Of a stretch of DNA of 64,000 nt, positions 50,233 through 58,093 are shown piece by piece. Each line of letters begins with the position of its first letter. The first letter of the stretch is position 1. Location: the NCBI RefSeq assembly GCF_009882935.1, contig NZ_WTVA01000003.1, positions 222,715 to 286,714 of the forward strand, given 5' to 3'. The translations under genes and the position numbers were made by a program. Under the pieces are notes generated by a model, which was given only the letters and a program-made list of their open reading frames with translations, ran no database searches and was not told the origin of the DNA. Source of the DNA: Sneathiella chungangensis (GTDB lineage Bacteria > Pseudomonadota > Alphaproteobacteria > Sneathiellales > Sneathiellaceae).

Positions 50233-50349
50233 CCCGCCGCCGCGCCCGCCGTTCCGGCTAATTTTATCCAATTTAACCTTAGTTCTTAACGGGGCTTTAA
50301 GGGGCTTTCGCTATCCTTATGCATATTTTTGCAGAAGGGTCGATCGGCT

Positions 50350-52128: not shown

Positions 52129-53775
52129 TTACTTCGAGATCCGCAGGTTGCTGAGCTCTTCACCGATGGTGTTGAAGTTATCTTCGAGCTCCGCGGCGGA
52201 TGTTGCGACAAAGGCGTGCTTGGGCGATGTCGCGCAAGCCTCCATCATCGCGGAATCGCCATCAACGAGCAGCACGGTATAGATAATGATCCCGGCGCTC
52301 TTCATCGCCGAGCAGGTGGCCAGCACCTTGGCATCCAATATTTGGGGATAGCTTGAATAGCCACTGCCGCTGAGGGCGCTCTGTTTCAGAAAGCCCCGGT
52401 AATCATATTTGCTGGATGTCGGGGTCAAATCGAAGCGTTCCTGCCGGGCAAAGGCATGATAAATATCGTAGGAACTGCTGTTTGTTCCAAGGGTGTTCAG
52501 GCCGTCGGTCATCAGCACGACGACCTTGTCCATGAACTGCTCGCCGTAATTGAGCGGCAGCGCCGTATAGCCGGAGGGAAGATTCAGCGTCGAGGATCCG
52601 TACCACAGGCCATTCCAGTTCGGAGACAGGGCGCGCCAGCCCCAGACCATGCCGATATTGATGGCCGTACCGCCGTCCGCCACCATCGAATCGATATGAT
52701 TTTTAATGGTGGTTTTTTCAGACGTCAGCGGTAGTATTTTGGCCGTAGGGCAGTATTTGTTCGGGCCGCGTTCGGATCCGATCGTGGTGGAAATAGAGTA
52801 GTAATTTCCGCCTTTTGACGATTTATATCTCTTCCAGTCATTTTCCATTACGGAGGCGTCGTTTTCGAAGCTGTTGTCCGAGTTACGATGATAATCGTTC
52901 CAGAAGTAGGGCACAAAATCATCGTTTGGCGCGTCGTCGGAAATGTCGACAGTACCATTGAGCAGGTGATCGCGCATCTCGACGCAACCCCGCCAGCCAT
53001 AGACCGTGTCATTGACGCCGTCACCGGTCACGTCGCGGCCAAGGGTGGTATTTGTGGAATCCTGCGTGAAGATACTCGTCGAGTTATTGGTGAGATTTGT
53101 TTTGTAGGTGTTTTTAAGCCAGTCGATATTCTGCGGACCGACATTAACGGCCATGGTGTAGGGAACGATACCGACCCAGAGTTTCTCCTGCGTCTCGTCA
53201 TTGCCGTACAGAATGTCAATCAGGTTCTTGGCGGAATTTTTCAAGACCGACATGCGCGTGCCGCTGCCCAGGCTGTAATCCATGGATCCCGTATTATCCA
53301 GAACCAGGACCAGTTCCATGCCGCGGTTGTCGCGCTTGATCTCGGTCACCGCACCGACAGACAGGGAGGAATGTCCGAGAACATTCATGAAGGTGGTGCC
53401 CATGTCCGCGCGGACGGTGAGGGAGATATTCTCGCGTGTCGAATCCCAGGTTACGGTCGAGGAATCCATCGTAATCGGAGAGGTGCCCATAAAGCCCGAC
53501 GGGAAATTGGCATCGAAATATTTCTGGGCGTCAGCGTAGATTTCCGCATCCGTTGGCGCGAAGATGTTGCGTCCGACCGCGAGGCCCGCCGCATCCAGGG
53601 CCGTTGACAGCTTCGATTTCAGGACGTAGGCCCGGCCGAGATCGATGGAAAGGCCGACAGCGCCGAAAATGGGAATTGCCAGAAACGCTATGATAACCGC
53701 AGACGCACCGCGATTGCTTTTTGTAAAACGTGCGACGGTCCGGCGTAGCGAACCGAAAGTAATTTTCTTGGTCAT
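52129..53775 (-). CDS. tadG: TadG-like pilus-assembly protein with VWA/MIDAS domain
   Basis: A 548-residue TadG-type protein. An N-terminal TadG_N helix has N-R-G-A-S-A-V-I-I-A-F-L-A-I-P. The VWA domain follows with a complete metal-ion adhesion site: D160-N-T162-G-S164, the Thr in D-G-G-T-A-I-N and the Asp in L-M-T-D-G-L. The C-terminal part contains W-Y-G-S-S-T and long polar stretches. It is likely the largest, perhaps tip-located, minor pilin. It is divergent from the pilin genes, unlike canonical loci. ATG 53775 begins the conserved region. Confidence 0.9.
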   Translation of the reverse strand: MTKKITFGSLRRTVARFTKSNRGASAVIIAFLAIPIFGAVGLSIDLGRAYVLKSKLSTALDAAGLAVGRNIFAPTDAEIYADAQKYFDANFPSGFMGTSPITMDSSTVTWDSTRENISLTVRADMGTTFMNVLGHSSLSVGAVTEIKRDNRGMELVLVLDNTGSMDYSLGSGTRMSVLKNSAKNLIDILYGNDETQEKLWVGIVPYTMAVNVGPQNIDWLKNTYKTNLTNNSTSIFTQDSTNTTLGRDVTGDGVNDTVYGWRGCVEMRDHLLNGTVDISDDAPNDDFVPYFWNDYHRNSDNSFENDASVMENDWKRYKSSKGGNYYSISTTIGSERGPNKYCPTAKILPLTSEKTTIKNHIDSMVADGGTAINIGMVWGWRALSPNWNGLWYGSSTLNLPSGYTALPLNYGEQFMDKVVVLMTDGLNTLGTNSSSYDIYHAFARQERFDLTPTSSKYDYRGFLKQSALSGSGYSSYPQILDAKVLATCSAMKSAGIIIYTVLLVDGDSAMMEACATSPKHAFVATSAAELEDNFNTIGEELSNLRISK

Positions 53776-54273
53776 GCTGACACCATGCAATTCAAAATAA
53801 ATTTTTCTGCATACAGCATCAGACAAAACTTTTAAGAAATCCTTAAAAACAAAAACCGATTTCAATAAAATTATACTAATTACATTAAAATATTTCGGAT
53901 AATAGACAAATTACACGTTATTATATATAGGAAAGAAATACAAAAGTAATAAAATGTAAATATAGTTAAAAAAATAAATAAAAAAATGTAAACGAATACT
54001 ATTTTTAATAAAATTTTATGAAGTTTTAGTTTCCCTGCCTTATGAAAAAAATTGAATTCTTTAACTATTGATTAATGAATTACGGTTTAAATGTGGCTCA
54101 AGGCGCGAGGCAAGACGAACTTGGGAAGCGCTTTAAACTATAAGGGCTTTTCAGGTTGCGGGTTTAACGCGGGCTAAAAAGTCTGGATACCAATGGGTCT
54201 GTAAAACCCGGCGGGACAAAACCAAGTTTTGTTAAGTGTCAGGAAATATTTCCTGAATTTTAGGAGACTCAAA
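53776..54273. other. AT-rich regulatory block upstream of the Flp pilins
   Basis: A 498-bp gene-free region between the divergent TadG and pilin genes. Bases about 53800-54060 are extremely AT-rich, then the composition rises. Near the pilin start lie ACAAAAC-CAA-GTTTTGT (54216-54232) and the perfect 18-bp palindrome TCAGGAAATATTTCCTGA (54239-54256). It probably holds promoters in both directions, a long pilin leader and perhaps a nucleoid-protein binding site. I could not place confident -35/-10 hexamers. Confidence 0.7.
54239..54256. promoter_or_regulatory. 18-bp palindrome before the first pilin gene
   Basis: TCAGGAAATATTTCCTGA is a perfect palindrome, 17 bp before the first flp start and just upstream of its TAGGAG ribosome site. 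It may be an operator or, as RNA, a translation-controlling hairpin. Confidence 0.55.
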
Positions 54274-54492
54274 ATGATTAAAGTTATCCGTTCTTTTGTA
54301 ACTGACGAGTCTGGTGCTACGGCTATCGAATATGGCCTGATTGCTGCTCTCGTCGCTCTGGTTGGTGTTGTTGCCTTTACGGCACTCGGTGACACTGTTT
54401 CTATCGCATTCAGCGATATTGCGCAGGCGCTCTGTGAAGGCACCGGCGGTACCTATTCGCTTACGGCAAATGGCGTTGGCAGCTGCACATAA
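54274..54492 (+). CDS. flp1: Flp/Fap-type pilin 1
   Basis: A 72-residue pilin precursor. The leader of about 14 residues ends in E-S-G, followed by the Flp motif A-T-A-I-E-Y-G-L-I-A-A with Glu at +5 and Tyr at +6. The mature 58-residue protein has one hydrophobic helix and a C-terminal loop holding two cysteines (L-C-E-G-T-G-G and G-S-C-T). Two Cys in the tail are unusual for Flp pilins and could form a disulfide. TAGGAG at 54261-54266 supports ATG 54274. Confidence 0.94.
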   Translation: MIKVIRSFVTDESGATAIEYGLIAALVALVGVVAFTALGDTVSIAFSDIAQALCEGTGGTYSLTANGVGSCT

Positions 54493-54514
54493 GCTTGCCC
54501 TGCCTTGTTTATTG

Positions 54515-54544
54515 GAGTGGGGCGCGGACACTTGCGCCCCACTC
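54515..54544 (+). other. Perfect stem-loop between the two pilin genes
   Basis: GAGTGGGGCGC (54515-54525) and GCGCCCCACTC (54534-54544) form an 11-bp perfect stem with an 8-base loop. No T-tract follows, so it looks like an mRNA-stabilising or attenuating hairpin that separates expression levels of the two pilins. Confidence 0.75.
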
Positions 54545-54548
54545 AAAT

Positions 54549-54565
54549 ACCTACCCAGGGTAGGT
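54549..54565 (+). other. Second perfect palindrome between the pilin genes
   Basis: ACCTACCC-A-GGGTAGGT is a perfect 17-bp palindrome five bases after the preceding stem-loop and 43 bp before the second pilin. It may be a second hairpin or a protein-binding site. Confidence 0.55.
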
Positions 54566-54608
54566 CCGCCTTTCAAGACTGTTTTAATGTATTGATTCGG
54601 AGGTTGTT

Positions 54609-54827
54609 ATGGTTGACTTTATAAAGCATTTTATCGAAGACGAAACCGGTGCAACAGCCATTGAATACGGCCTCATCGCAGCCCTTGTTTCCATCGCGGC
54701 AGTTGTCGCTTTTGGAGCAACCGGCGATACAATTCTTACGGCATTTACAAATATCGCCGAGGGATTCTGTACGGCGACTGGCGGCAATTTCTCCATGACG
54801 GCTAATGGGGTCGGTAGCTGCACTTGA
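54609..54827 (+). CDS. flp2: Flp/Fap-type pilin 2
   Basis: A 72-residue paralogue of pilin 1. It has the same E-T-G / A-T-A-I-E-Y-G-L-I-A-A processing region, and the final nine residues (T-A-N-G-V-G-S-C-T) are identical. It again has two tail cysteines (F-C-T-A-T-G-G and S-C-T). The hydrophobic helix differs (V-S-I-A-A-V-V-A-F versus V-A-L-V-G-V-V-A-F). CGGAGG at 54598-54603 is a good ribosome site. Confidence 0.94.
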   Translation: MVDFIKHFIEDETGATAIEYGLIAALVSIAAVVAFGATGDTILTAFTNIAEGFCTATGGNFSMTANGVGSCT

Positions 54828-55073
54828 GTTTGTGCACCCGCTCCTTTTCTTTTTCTTCCCTTCGCGATTTCGGCATTCCGCCAGAACCCCCTCCCGCTTC
54901 GGCAAATCCGTCAAATTTTATGCAATTTTTACGTGCATTTTACGCCAGTTTTTAAGGCCCAATTTTACCCTGCTTCTCCGAAATTTAGTGCGTAAAACGC
55001 GACAAATTTAACCGGAAATTAATGTCTTCCGGTCTAGGCTGTCCCATATTTGAAACATGATGGAATTAACACC

Positions 55074-55970
55074 ATGGCGCGAAAAATTATTTTAATCGTC
55101 TTTGCACTGCTCATTACGGGCTCCACCGTATGGTTCGTTCGCAACTGGGCGGGCAGCCAGAAACCGGCCACTGTCGAAACGGCGGCTGTTGAAGTGCAAC
55201 CGGTCTCCCAGAATGTTAAAATCCTTGTCGCGGCCACCGATCTGCCGGCAGGCACCCTGGTGCAGGAGCAGCATCTGAAATGGCAGGCCTGGCCCGAAGA
55301 TGACGATATCGAGGATATGTATATCGTAGAAAAGGCCCGTCCGCTCGACGACTTTATCGGTACCGTCGTGCGCCAGGGTATCGTCGCCGGTGAACCGATC
55401 ACCGACGCCCGCATGGTCAAGCCGGGCCAGAGCGGCTTCCTCGCCGCGGTTCTCAACCCGGGCAAGCGCGCCGTTTCCATTCCCGTTGACATCACCTCCG
55501 GTATCGCCGGCTTCGTCTTTCCGGGCGACCGGGTCGATGTGATCCTGACCCATTCATTGGTTGCGGAATCGGAAGTTGAAGGCGAGACGAGCGCGGCCCG
55601 CCGGGCAAGTGAAACCATTCTTACCGATGTGCGCGTGGTCGCCATGGACCAGTCGACGAACGATCAGGAGCAGGAAGCCTCCGTCCGCCGCGTGGCGACG
55701 CTGGAAGTCTCTCCCAAGGGCGCGGAAATCATCGCGGTCGCGAAGGAACTGGGTCAGTTGACTTTGTCGCTGCGCGCCCTCGCGCGGATCGAGGATGAAG
55801 AGAAGAGCAAGGACGGCCAGGTGGCCTTCAAGGCCGAACGTGGCCGCGGCCACACCTGGGACAGCGAGGCGAGCCGCCTGATTACCGGCGGATCTCCGCG
55901 CATGGGTATCCCTACAACAGTCATCAATGTCGTGCGTGCTGGCGAAGCCAAGCAGAAGTTGTTCGACTAA
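55074..55970 (+). CDS. cpaB: Flp pilus assembly protein CpaB (RcpC)
   Basis: A 298-residue inner-membrane-anchored periplasmic protein. One N-terminal membrane segment (about 5-25) is followed by a SAF-type domain with V-L-V-A-A-T-D-L-P-A-G-T-L-V and later I-P-V-D-I-T-S-G-I-A-G-F-V-F-P-G-D-R-V-D-V. CpaB supports secretin assembly and may bind pilus or peptidoglycan components. ATG 55074 is chosen because it begins the signal anchor; ribosome-site evidence is weak. It begins the uninterrupted cpaB-tadC operon. Confidence 0.93.
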   Translation: MARKIILIVFALLITGSTVWFVRNWAGSQKPATVETAAVEVQPVSQNVKILVAATDLPAGTLVQEQHLKWQAWPEDDDIEDMYIVEKARPLDDFIGTVVRQGIVAGEPITDARMVKPGQSGFLAAVLNPGKRAVSIPVDITSGIAGFVFPGDRVDVILTHSLVAESEVEGETSAARRASETILTDVRVVAMDQSTNDQEQEASVRRVATLEVSPKGAEIIAVAKELGQLTLSLRALARIEDEEKSKDGQVAFKAERGRGHTWDSEASRLITGGSPRMGIPTTVINVVRAGEAKQKLFD

Positions 55971-55982
55971 GGAGTAGTTTCG

Positions 55983-57407
55983 ATGCTGACCAGACTTTTA
56001 CAACCATTGGCCGCACTCGGGCTGGGATTGATGTTGGCCTTGGGCGCTCCGGCGAAAGTCGACGCGGCGCAGGTGATCAACTCGAAGGGTGATATACTCG
56101 CGCTGACCCTGAATTCGGGCAAACTCGTTCAGCTCGACCAGCCGGCGACCTCTGTTTTCGTCGGAAATCCGGAACTTGCCGATGTGCAGATCCAGTCGCC
56201 GACCATCATCTATGTATTCGGCAAGGGCACGGGCAGCACGAATCTCTTCGCGCTCGACGCCAAGGGCCGGGTGCTTCTGAACTCGCCGGTGTCCATTACC
56301 CATGACGTGACGTCGCTGAACGCGGCGCTGCAGGATATCAGCCCGAACGGCGCCCTGCGTGCCCGCTCGACACCGACCGGCATCATGCTGACGGGCCGGG
56401 TGAAATCCGCGGCCCAGGCCGAAGATGCCCGCCGCATGGCGGAATTGTATCTTGGCGGCGGCACTGTTTTTAATCGCATCGAGGTGGCGGGCGCCATGCA
56501 GGTCAACCTGCGCGTCCGCATTGCCGAGGTGTCGCGCTCCGTCACCAAGCAGTTCGGCGTCAACTGGGAAGTCTTCGGCCAGATCGGCGATGCCTTTCTC
56601 GGATTTGCGACGCCGACCGACATCGTGAGCGATGCTGCGACCGGTACGCTGAACCGTCTCGGGTCCGGCACGAACTTCGTCTCCGGCTATTCCGACAGCA
56701 ACGTCGATATATTGAATGTCATTGACGCGCTTGATGAGGAGGGCCTCCTGACCATCCTTGCCGAGCCGAACCTGACGGCCCTCTCCGGTGAGAGAGCGCA
56801 GTTCCTGGCGGGTGGCGAGTTCCCGATTCCGGTTCCGCAGGAAGACGGCGCGATCACCGTCGAATATAAGCCGTTCGGTGTGTCGCTTGAATTCACGCCG
56901 ACGATTGTCGATGACAACCTGATCAACCTGCAGGTCCGGCCGGAAGTTAGCCAGCTGTCCTCCAACTCGGCGATCAATGTCGGCGGCGCCTTTATCCAGT
57001 CGCTGCTGACCCGCCGCGCGGAGACAACCGTGGAACTGGCCAGCGGGCAGAGCTTCGCCATTGGCGGCCTGCTCAGCAACGACGGGGACAACAATATCTC
57101 CAAGACACCGTTCCTCGGCGATATCCCGATCCTGGGTGCGCTGTTCCGCTCCTCCTCGTTCCAGCGGAACGAAACCGAGCTGCTGATCATCGTCACCCCG
57201 TATCTGGTGAAACCGAGCAATTCGCGGATCGCCGAGCCGACGGACGGGTACATCCCGCCGAACGACAAGGATATTTATGTCCGCGGCGAGAATTTCCGCC
57301 CGACGCTGGGAGAAAACGCCCCGGAGAAAGACGGCCGTGATACCGCCAAGGCTGCGGCGCCAACCGATGTCAAGCTTGCTGGCCCTGCTGGCTTTATCCT
57401 GGAGTAG
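55983..57407 (+). CDS. cpaC: Type II/III secretin CpaC (RcpA)
   Basis: A 474-residue outer-membrane secretin of the Tad system with a signal peptide (about 1-29). BON/N-domain region (about 30-170) includes V-F-V-G-N-P-E-L-A-D-V-Q; the secretin domain follows, with L-T-A-L-S-G-E-R-A-Q-F-L-A-G-G-E-F-P-I-P-V-P and V-S-L-E-F-T-P-T-I. L-S-N-D-G-D-N-N-I-S-K-T-P-F-L-G matches the closing gate region. It forms the pore through which the pilus exits. Confidence 0.95.
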   Translation: MLTRLLQPLAALGLGLMLALGAPAKVDAAQVINSKGDILALTLNSGKLVQLDQPATSVFVGNPELADVQIQSPTIIYVFGKGTGSTNLFALDAKGRVLLNSPVSITHDVTSLNAALQDISPNGALRARSTPTGIMLTGRVKSAAQAEDARRMAELYLGGGTVFNRIEVAGAMQVNLRVRIAEVSRSVTKQFGVNWEVFGQIGDAFLGFATPTDIVSDAATGTLNRLGSGTNFVSGYSDSNVDILNVIDALDEEGLLTILAEPNLTALSGERAQFLAGGEFPIPVPQEDGAITVEYKPFGVSLEFTPTIVDDNLINLQVRPEVSQLSSNSAINVGGAFIQSLLTRRAETTVELASGQSFAIGGLLSNDGDNNISKTPFLGDIPILGALFRSSSFQRNETELLIIVTPYLVKPSNSRIAEPTDGYIPPNDKDIYVRGENFRPTLGENAPEKDGRDTAKAAAPTDVKLAGPAGFILE

Positions 57408-57412
57408 ACCTG

Positions 57413-58093
57413 ATGCAACAGAAATTATTCATGAAATCCGCGACGCTGGCCGGCCTGATGGGAATGCTTCTGCTGACGGCGTCCTGCACCTCGCCGGAAG
57501 CTCTCTTCGGACAACTCGACGATACGGCGAGCCCGGAAAAAGCGAAACTTGAGAAAAAGATCATGGTCAGCGAACTGACGCCGACGATTGCCGTCGGGTT
57601 CGAATCGGGTCGCTCCGGCCTTGCGGATATCGAGAAGGGCCGTCTGCTTGGCTTTATCGATGCCCAGGAAATCGAATTCGGTGAAACCGTCGAAGTCGAG
57701 TTCCCGAATATCCAGGGCGCCGGCGGTCTCGGCGAACAGCGATTCGCGGAGGTTGCGGCCTTCCTGCAGGATCGCGGCTTTTCCGTCGCCCCGCGTCTGA
57801 CCGCGGAAAGCACGACCGATTCGCTGCGGGTCTTCTTCGTCAAATATGTCGCGACGGTCGATCCCAACTGCGAGAAGGGCTGGTACAAGCCGAAGGGACT
57901 CGGATACGAAAACCTGCCGCTTCCCTATATGGGCTGCGCTAATGCCAACGCGCTGGCCAACATGGTCGCCAATCCGCGCGATCTGGTCGATCCGTCCAGC
58001 GAGGATAACGCCCTGGGCGAACGGGCGGCAAAAGCCGTTCAGAAATATCGCGGCGGATCATCTGGCGGGGCCGCTGCCGCTGCATCGAATTAA
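57413..58093 (+). CDS. cpaD: Pilus-assembly lipoprotein CpaD
   Basis: A 226-residue lipoprotein precursor. The signal peptide ends in L-L-T-A-S-C (lipobox), followed by the CpaD core with E-V-E-F-P and the C-terminal Y-M-G-C-A-N-A-N-A-L-A-N-M-V-A-N-P-R-D-L, a diagnostic CpaD signature. It assists the CpaC secretin at the outer membrane. It follows cpaC by 5 bp. Confidence 0.93.
   Translation: MQQKLFMKSATLAGLMGMLLLTASCTSPEALFGQLDDTASPEKAKLEKKIMVSELTPTIAVGFESGRSGLADIEKGRLLGFIDAQEIEFGETVEVEFPNIQGAGGLGEQRFAEVAAFLQDRGFSVAPRLTAESTTDSLRVFFVKYVATVDPNCEKGWYKPKGLGYENLPLPYMGCANANALANMVANPRDLVDPSSEDNALGERAAKAVQKYRGGSSGGAAAAASN

Follow-up and report, generated by a model that had tools for sequence, protein, structure and literature searches.

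Does a Tad pilus locus headed by two Flp pilin genes, each encoding a pair of cysteines close to its end, specify a single filament of two unequal subunits, and are the tails of these subunits closed by a disulfide? The locus belongs to the 3.81 Mb genome of an alphaproteobacterium of the genus Sneathiella, a marine bacterium, and was analysed within a 64-kb stretch of DNA (the window), to which the coordinates refer. Two 72-residue Flp pilins, both above the PF04964 cut-off of 32.2 bits, stand at the head of the locus, and their context by Pfam is that of a tad locus: TadE, a second TadE/TadF-like gene and a Tad/VWA gene lie on the 5' side, and cpaB (CpaB/RcpC), the secretin gene and cpaD on the 3' side.

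54274..54492, + strand: pilin 1 (Flp_Fap), probable major pilin; Pfam PF04964 E 3.7e-13, 49.5 bits
54433-54435 and 54484-54486, + strand: Cys codons of pilin 1
54609..54827, + strand: pilin 2 (Flp_Fap), probable minor pilin; Pfam PF04964 E 7.6e-15, 54.9 bits
54768-54770 and 54819-54821, + strand: Cys codons of pilin 2
55074..55970, + strand: cpaB/rcpC (Pfam)
55983-57407, + strand: secretin (Pfam)
57413-58093, + strand: cpaD (Pfam)

The two pilins are identical at 46/72 residues (62.6% nucleotide identity), and in both the prepilin peptidase site, G/xxxxEY followed by a hydrophobic helix, is present as G14/ATAIEY, where the family motif suggests that each would be cut. The pair could be fetched from 20/23 congeners, giving 21 genomes and 42 pilins with the window; the three that yielded none (G005, G012 and G016) are incomplete genomes (56-70% complete). 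Reading direction and gene order are the same in 21/21 genomes, and G018 (locus L050) has three identical tandem copies of pilin 1 followed by one pilin 2. The next long open reading frame 3' of pilin 2, in the region corresponding to 54828-55073, encodes 169-173 residues and by eye resembles the CpaA prepilin peptidase in 11/21 genomes; it is cpaB in the window and eight others, and the remaining genome is that of L042.

Phylogenetic analysis (60 columns, midpoint root) placed pilin 2 in its own group genus-wide with support 99/97, a group that also holds the pilin 1 of G003 and one distant outgroup row. Mean identity over mature residues 1-40 is 81% among pilin 1 sequences and 65% among pilin 2 sequences (190 pairs each, G003 left out), and mean dN/dS in nine close genomes is 0.12 for pilin 1 (35/36 pairs) and 0.07 for pilin 2 (23/36 pairs). 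These values imply that both pilins are kept by selection, and that they are distinct.

The initial annotation supposed that the two pilins are made at different levels. What lies before each gene lends support to this inference, for a CtrA-type box and a structured leader are found before pilin 1 only, and a hairpin occupies the gap in 21/21 genomes.

54061..54075, + strand: CtrA-type box TTAA-N7-TTAA (TTAACTATTGATTAA), probable pilin 1 promoter element, identical in 21/21 genus genomes
55008..55022, + strand: second CtrA-type box, upstream of cpaB
54096..54273, + strand: 5' leader of pilin 1, conserved and structured, with an inferred start; z -3.96; no Rfam family
54096..54186, + strand: leader stems I and II, covered by model R1; one site per genome, 15/60 genomes, all Sneathiella
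54239..54256, + strand: stem IV hairpin just before the pilin 1 ribosome-binding site; covarying pairs
54515..54544, + strand: hairpin 3' of pilin 1; stem of 11 perfect pairs, or 13 counting G-T

The consensus bound by CtrA is TTAA-N7-TTAA and this regulator drives pilA in Caulobacter crescentus, according to PMC11264516; in Sneathiella TTAACTATTGATTAA is found about 200 bases 5' of pilin 1 in 21/21 genomes, upstream as in a CtrA-controlled promoter, and CtrA may bind at 54061-54075. Four such boxes are present in the window against 0.17 expected, and together they are likely to form a CtrA regulon near the tad genes. All four (50286-50300, 53832-53846, 54061-54075 and 55008-55022) adjoin tad genes. 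None of the 21 genomes has TTAA-N7-TTAA in the pilin gap, and one further copy follows pilin 2 in every one. With both box and leader before pilin 1 alone, and no such box in the gap, we take pilin 1 as the probable major subunit, with pilin 2 as a minor one fed by read-through. The positions of box and hairpin are direct observations, from which promoter activity and levels are deduced.

The leader begins at about 54096 and extends approximately 175 nt to the start codon; it is conserved much more strongly than the gap, with 79% mean column identity in 15 genomes. The main leader type is present in 15 genomes and a diverged one in six. Stem I can form near the start of both types, its register shifted by two bases between them, and was for that reason left out of the covariation count. 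Both types also show paired changes in stem II (GGGCTTTT/AAAAGTCT or GGACTTCG/TGAAGTTC) and in stem IV (CAGGA/TCCTG), which adjoins the ribosome-binding site, and stem III is variable; for stems II to IV the best-pairing partners were taken, which biases the result towards pairing. RNAalifold gave covariation terms near zero, with a weak consensus at -0.58 for all 21 leaders and a slightly unfavourable +0.47 for the 15 of type A/C, and single-sequence energies can favour another long pairing, so that the fold is offered as a proposal. The R1 model found sites in 15/60 genomes searched, all Sneathiella, and in 0/36 genomes of other genera; two of the six diverged leaders were recovered at E ~0.001, two weakly, and two were missed. 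A search of Rfam 15 over 53700-55100 with E up to 10 returned no match for the leader and one chance snoRNA match elsewhere. A small coding frame beginning at an ATG near 54091 was rejected: by eye, ATG and frame are not preserved in several genomes (L048, L053 and L035 among them) and the conserved block has no synonymous pattern. The stretch is a candidate leader RNA, and the most novel by-product of the analysis.

The 11-bp perfect stem-loop that had been described between the pilins is real, being the sole perfect stem of at least 11 pairs with a loop of 3-12 in the 64-kb window. The gap folds with z -4.24, and we take the hairpin at 54515-54544 to be more than chance. A strong gap hairpin is present in 21/21 genomes, with z < -2 in 20/21 (L053, -1.3), against 4/21 for control regions after pilin 2 and 4/21 before pilin 1. 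In G018 the two gaps between the pilin 1 copies have no hairpin (z 0.2 and 0.0) and the last gap has one (-2.5). A stem of 12 pairs, followed through eight close genomes chosen from the 21, is 87.5% paired, compared with 48-60% when slid, and six pairs have changed on both sides. Such hairpins are nevertheless nothing special to this gap, as 68/99 pilin 3' flanks outside the genus also fold with z < -2. Since hairpins follow most Flp pilin genes elsewhere, the one described here is a usual end element, probably an ordinary terminator or mRNA-end element. The stem in the window gap is G+C-rich and has no T-run, and a terminator scan found no intrinsic terminator; by inspection, clear T-runs follow the hairpin in several congeners.

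Taken together, these features would describe a pathway in which a CtrA-type promoter, followed by the structured leader, expresses pilin 1 as the major subunit, and most transcripts are terminated or stabilised by the hairpin that follows; pilin 2, preceded by a good ribosome-binding site and by no CtrA-type box, would be supplied by read-through as a minor subunit of the same filament. Unequal production is likely, and a mixed filament of the two is plausible. Pilin 1 could instead be the minor subunit, and pilin 2 could have its own promoter, missed by the scans. We consider it rather improbable that the pilins are interchangeable and made at similar levels, the hairpin being a stability element of the mRNA only. 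The frequency of hairpins behind pilin genes outside the genus and the missing T-run in the window agree with such an arrangement, as does the finding that the tails of pilin 1 and pilin 2 resemble each other more in the same genome than across genomes (none of 5000 permutations, uncorrected for relatedness, was as high). It does not account for a leader and box that precede pilin 1 alone, nor for the T-runs of the congeners, nor for a difference between the pilins that is fixed throughout the genus, in the identity of residues 1-40 and in a loop of variable length in pilin 1 and fixed length in pilin 2 (20/21 genomes).

That loop lies between the tail cysteines. The initial annotation had reported that both pilins share their last nine residues and have a second tail Cys, a feature it thought unusual and suggestive of a disulfide. 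The common ending TANGVGSCT is confirmed, as is the second Cys, the two cysteines falling at mature positions 40 and 57. By inspection, exact identity of the nine residues occurs only in this genome among the 21 compared, and the trait kept across the genus is the Cys pair rather than this identity. The last ten codons of the two genes differ at 7/30 bases, which shows that the tails are not recent copies of one another; recent gene conversion was rejected as their origin on the same count. Exactly two Cys are present beyond mature residue 26 in 42/42 genus pilins, the first at mature 40 in all of them and the second ranging over mature 52-64 in pilin 1; in pilin 2 the second is at 57 in 20/21 sequences (50 in G003). 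The spacing takes seven lengths, from 11 to 23 residues, in pilin 1 and is 16 in 20/21 genomes in pilin 2. Four of the 42 have an extra in-helix Cys; in G018 (L050) an extra Cys at mature position 17 is common to both pilins. A second pilin pair in G010 (L044), which is unlike the main pair and was excluded from the genus counts, has two late Cys in each member (mature 38 and 47, and 33 and 45).

Outside the genus we assembled 253 distinct mature pilins (240 loci), a set that is mainly alphaproteobacterial and shaped by the queries rather than random, after dropping 31 matches without a usable motif or length, TadE-like proteins among them. Tail cysteines number none in 245, two in seven and one in a single row (L294), which was dropped as a judged frameshift, its post-helix tail being unlike any pilin. 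The tails of the Sneathiella pilins are thus indeed unusual, with two cysteines in 7/252 sequences elsewhere and none in 245/252, and 0/252 intact tails contain exactly one. Random dealing of residues predicts 0.38 tails with at least two Cys, and seven was never reached in 10,000 deals. In these seven the two cysteines stand closer together, at spacings of 6 to 11, and among them is G024, the only further genus of the family that was sampled. Two tail cysteines or none is the pattern expected of disulfide partners, and this pattern of pairs or nothing is the best evidence, drawn from sequence comparison, that a bond may form within one pilin. Profile A1, run on 190 genomes of the class, gave, among the matches listed, none outside the genus that reached beyond position 67 of the 72 in the model. 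A degenerate DNA pattern for EYG-x-Cys-x-Cys proved useless, matching 237/385 genomes of the class, with similar counts for a reversed control.

AlphaFold2 models of pilin 1 (mean pLDDT 84.9, pTM 0.50) and pilin 2 (83.4, 0.45) both predict a helix to residue 56 and strands at 61-63 and 69-71, with pLDDT 83-86 in that part, and the cysteines, residues 54 and 71, occupy the end of the helix and the last strand, respectively. A C-terminal beta-hairpin is thereby predicted between the cysteines of both pilins, added to the helix that is all of a usual Flp pilin (a property that is not defining in Pfam). Sequence relatives in the PDB at E <0.001 are confined to 45-residue Flp pilins (8u2b, 8u1k), whose alignment covers residues 15-57 and which have no such tail, and a Foldseek search with the pilin 1 model gave 15 weak matches, the best at E 5.4 and none useful. 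The source genome encodes the oxidising machinery, with eight DsbA and two DsbB matches. A prepilin peptidase gene near dsbB in this genome was put down to chance. The earlier suggestion of a disulfide-closed tail is supported by the Cys comparison, the predicted hairpin and the DsbA/DsbB genes, and we judge it likely. After the prepilin cut each pilin would be one long helix packed into the filament core, beyond which a 16-residue beta-hairpin loop would be closed in the periplasm by a Cys40-Cys57 disulfide (mature numbering), and the filament surface would bear small covalently locked loops rather than bare helix ends.

The cysteines might instead cross-link neighbouring subunits or stay reduced. 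Adjacent subunits have their tails at the filament surface, and a single in-helix Cys is known in some Flp pilins (9/253 outside the genus), but cross-linking would be served as readily by one Cys per subunit as by two, and not one intact single-Cys tail was found among the 252. The constant 16-residue loop of pilin 2 is as expected for a closed loop, and a retractable pilus has to disassemble again. We therefore regard these alternatives as unlikely and favour the loop within one pilin.

The gap also contains a palindrome, which had been noted together with the hairpin.

54549..54565, + strand: palindrome ACCTACCC-A-GGGTAGGT, possible weaker second hairpin; -9.0 kcal/mol as a 7-bp hairpin
54493..54502, + strand: arm that the predicted fold pairs with 54556-54565, in competition with the palindrome

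The palindrome exists but is weak alone, being one of seven distinct such places in the window (arms of at least 8, centre of 0-2 bases; eight rows, one place listed twice), or of six if the double-listed 54239-54256 is merged; its 3' half is taken up by pairing with 54493-54502 when the gap is folded. We found nothing in support of a switchable filament, and it is highly unlikely that the hairpins serve to switch from one pilin to the other. The two alternative pairings, as seen in the window sequence, speak for such a switch; hairpin sequences and gap lengths (57-145 bases) that vary freely between genomes speak against it, as do genes fixed in direction and order.

The Sneathiella pilins resemble Caulobacter crescentus PilA (PDB 8u2b, 8ucr, 8u1k; PMC11067988) in having the same ATAIEYGLI mature start, and that paper describes the Tad pilin family as being without the usual globular domain. 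They differ from PilA, the mature form of which is a helix of 45 residues, in having 58 residues with a predicted Cys-closed beta-hairpin, and in being encoded by two tandem genes. Type IVa and IVb pilins possess a C-terminal disulfide-bounded region, in which two cysteines enclose a surface segment. The Sneathiella tail similarly has two C-terminal cysteines around such a segment; unlike these pilins it forms part of a protein of 72 residues, predicted to be a helix with one beta-hairpin and no globular beta-sheet domain, its loop has 16 residues, and the PDB search by sequence gave no match to type IVa or IVb pilins. In Aggregatibacter, flp-1 and flp-2 head the tad locus and are reportedly transcribed in graded fashion through a tad 'termination cascade', as Kram and colleagues are said to have described in 2008; that pair is gammaproteobacterial, unlike the one studied here, and we know of no Cys tails in it. 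A further compared system has one major and additional minor Flp-type pilins, as we propose for Sneathiella, but its genes are scattered and its predicted disulfides sit in tip proteins.

As a whole, the proposal of a Tad (type IVc) pilus built from two paralogous, unusually constructed Flp pilins with Cys-closed loops, pilin 1 being the major subunit and pilin 2 a minor one supplied by read-through, appears reasonably probable to us, with the bond and the co-assembly as proposals beside the observed sequences, conservation and pairing pattern of the cysteines and the predicted fold. The pilin with a looped tail is an apparently novel form of the Flp pilin, conserved and modestly surprising; in the open-access literature we recognised no description of Cys-looped Flp pilins, and found nothing on Tad pili of Sneathiella. 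Contacts and phage binding are functions of the globular domain in other type IV pili, and Tad pili have, to our knowledge, the smallest pilins. If the disulfide-closed hairpin is true, it would show how a minimal-helix filament gains a stable, variable surface, and the pairs-or-nothing occurrence of the tail cysteines makes the bond directly testable; the conserved leader represents a second, separately testable layer of control. It is a tentative and somewhat doubtful extension of these ideas that two-component Sneathiella Tad filaments with disulfide-locked beta-hairpin loops constitute a third kind of pilus surface, intermediate between the bare helices of Tad pilins and the globular type IV pilins, with a new leader RNA of four hairpins, the last beside the ribosome-binding site, regulating the major pilin on top of CtrA.

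The source genome encodes two more Flp pilins besides the pair. A further Flp pilin on another contig (L056) has two tail Cys close to its end, and a second tad-type locus in the same genome (L057, 4309-7378) combines a prepilin peptidase with an Flp pilin that lacks Cys and with open reading frames resembling cpaB and a secretin gene.
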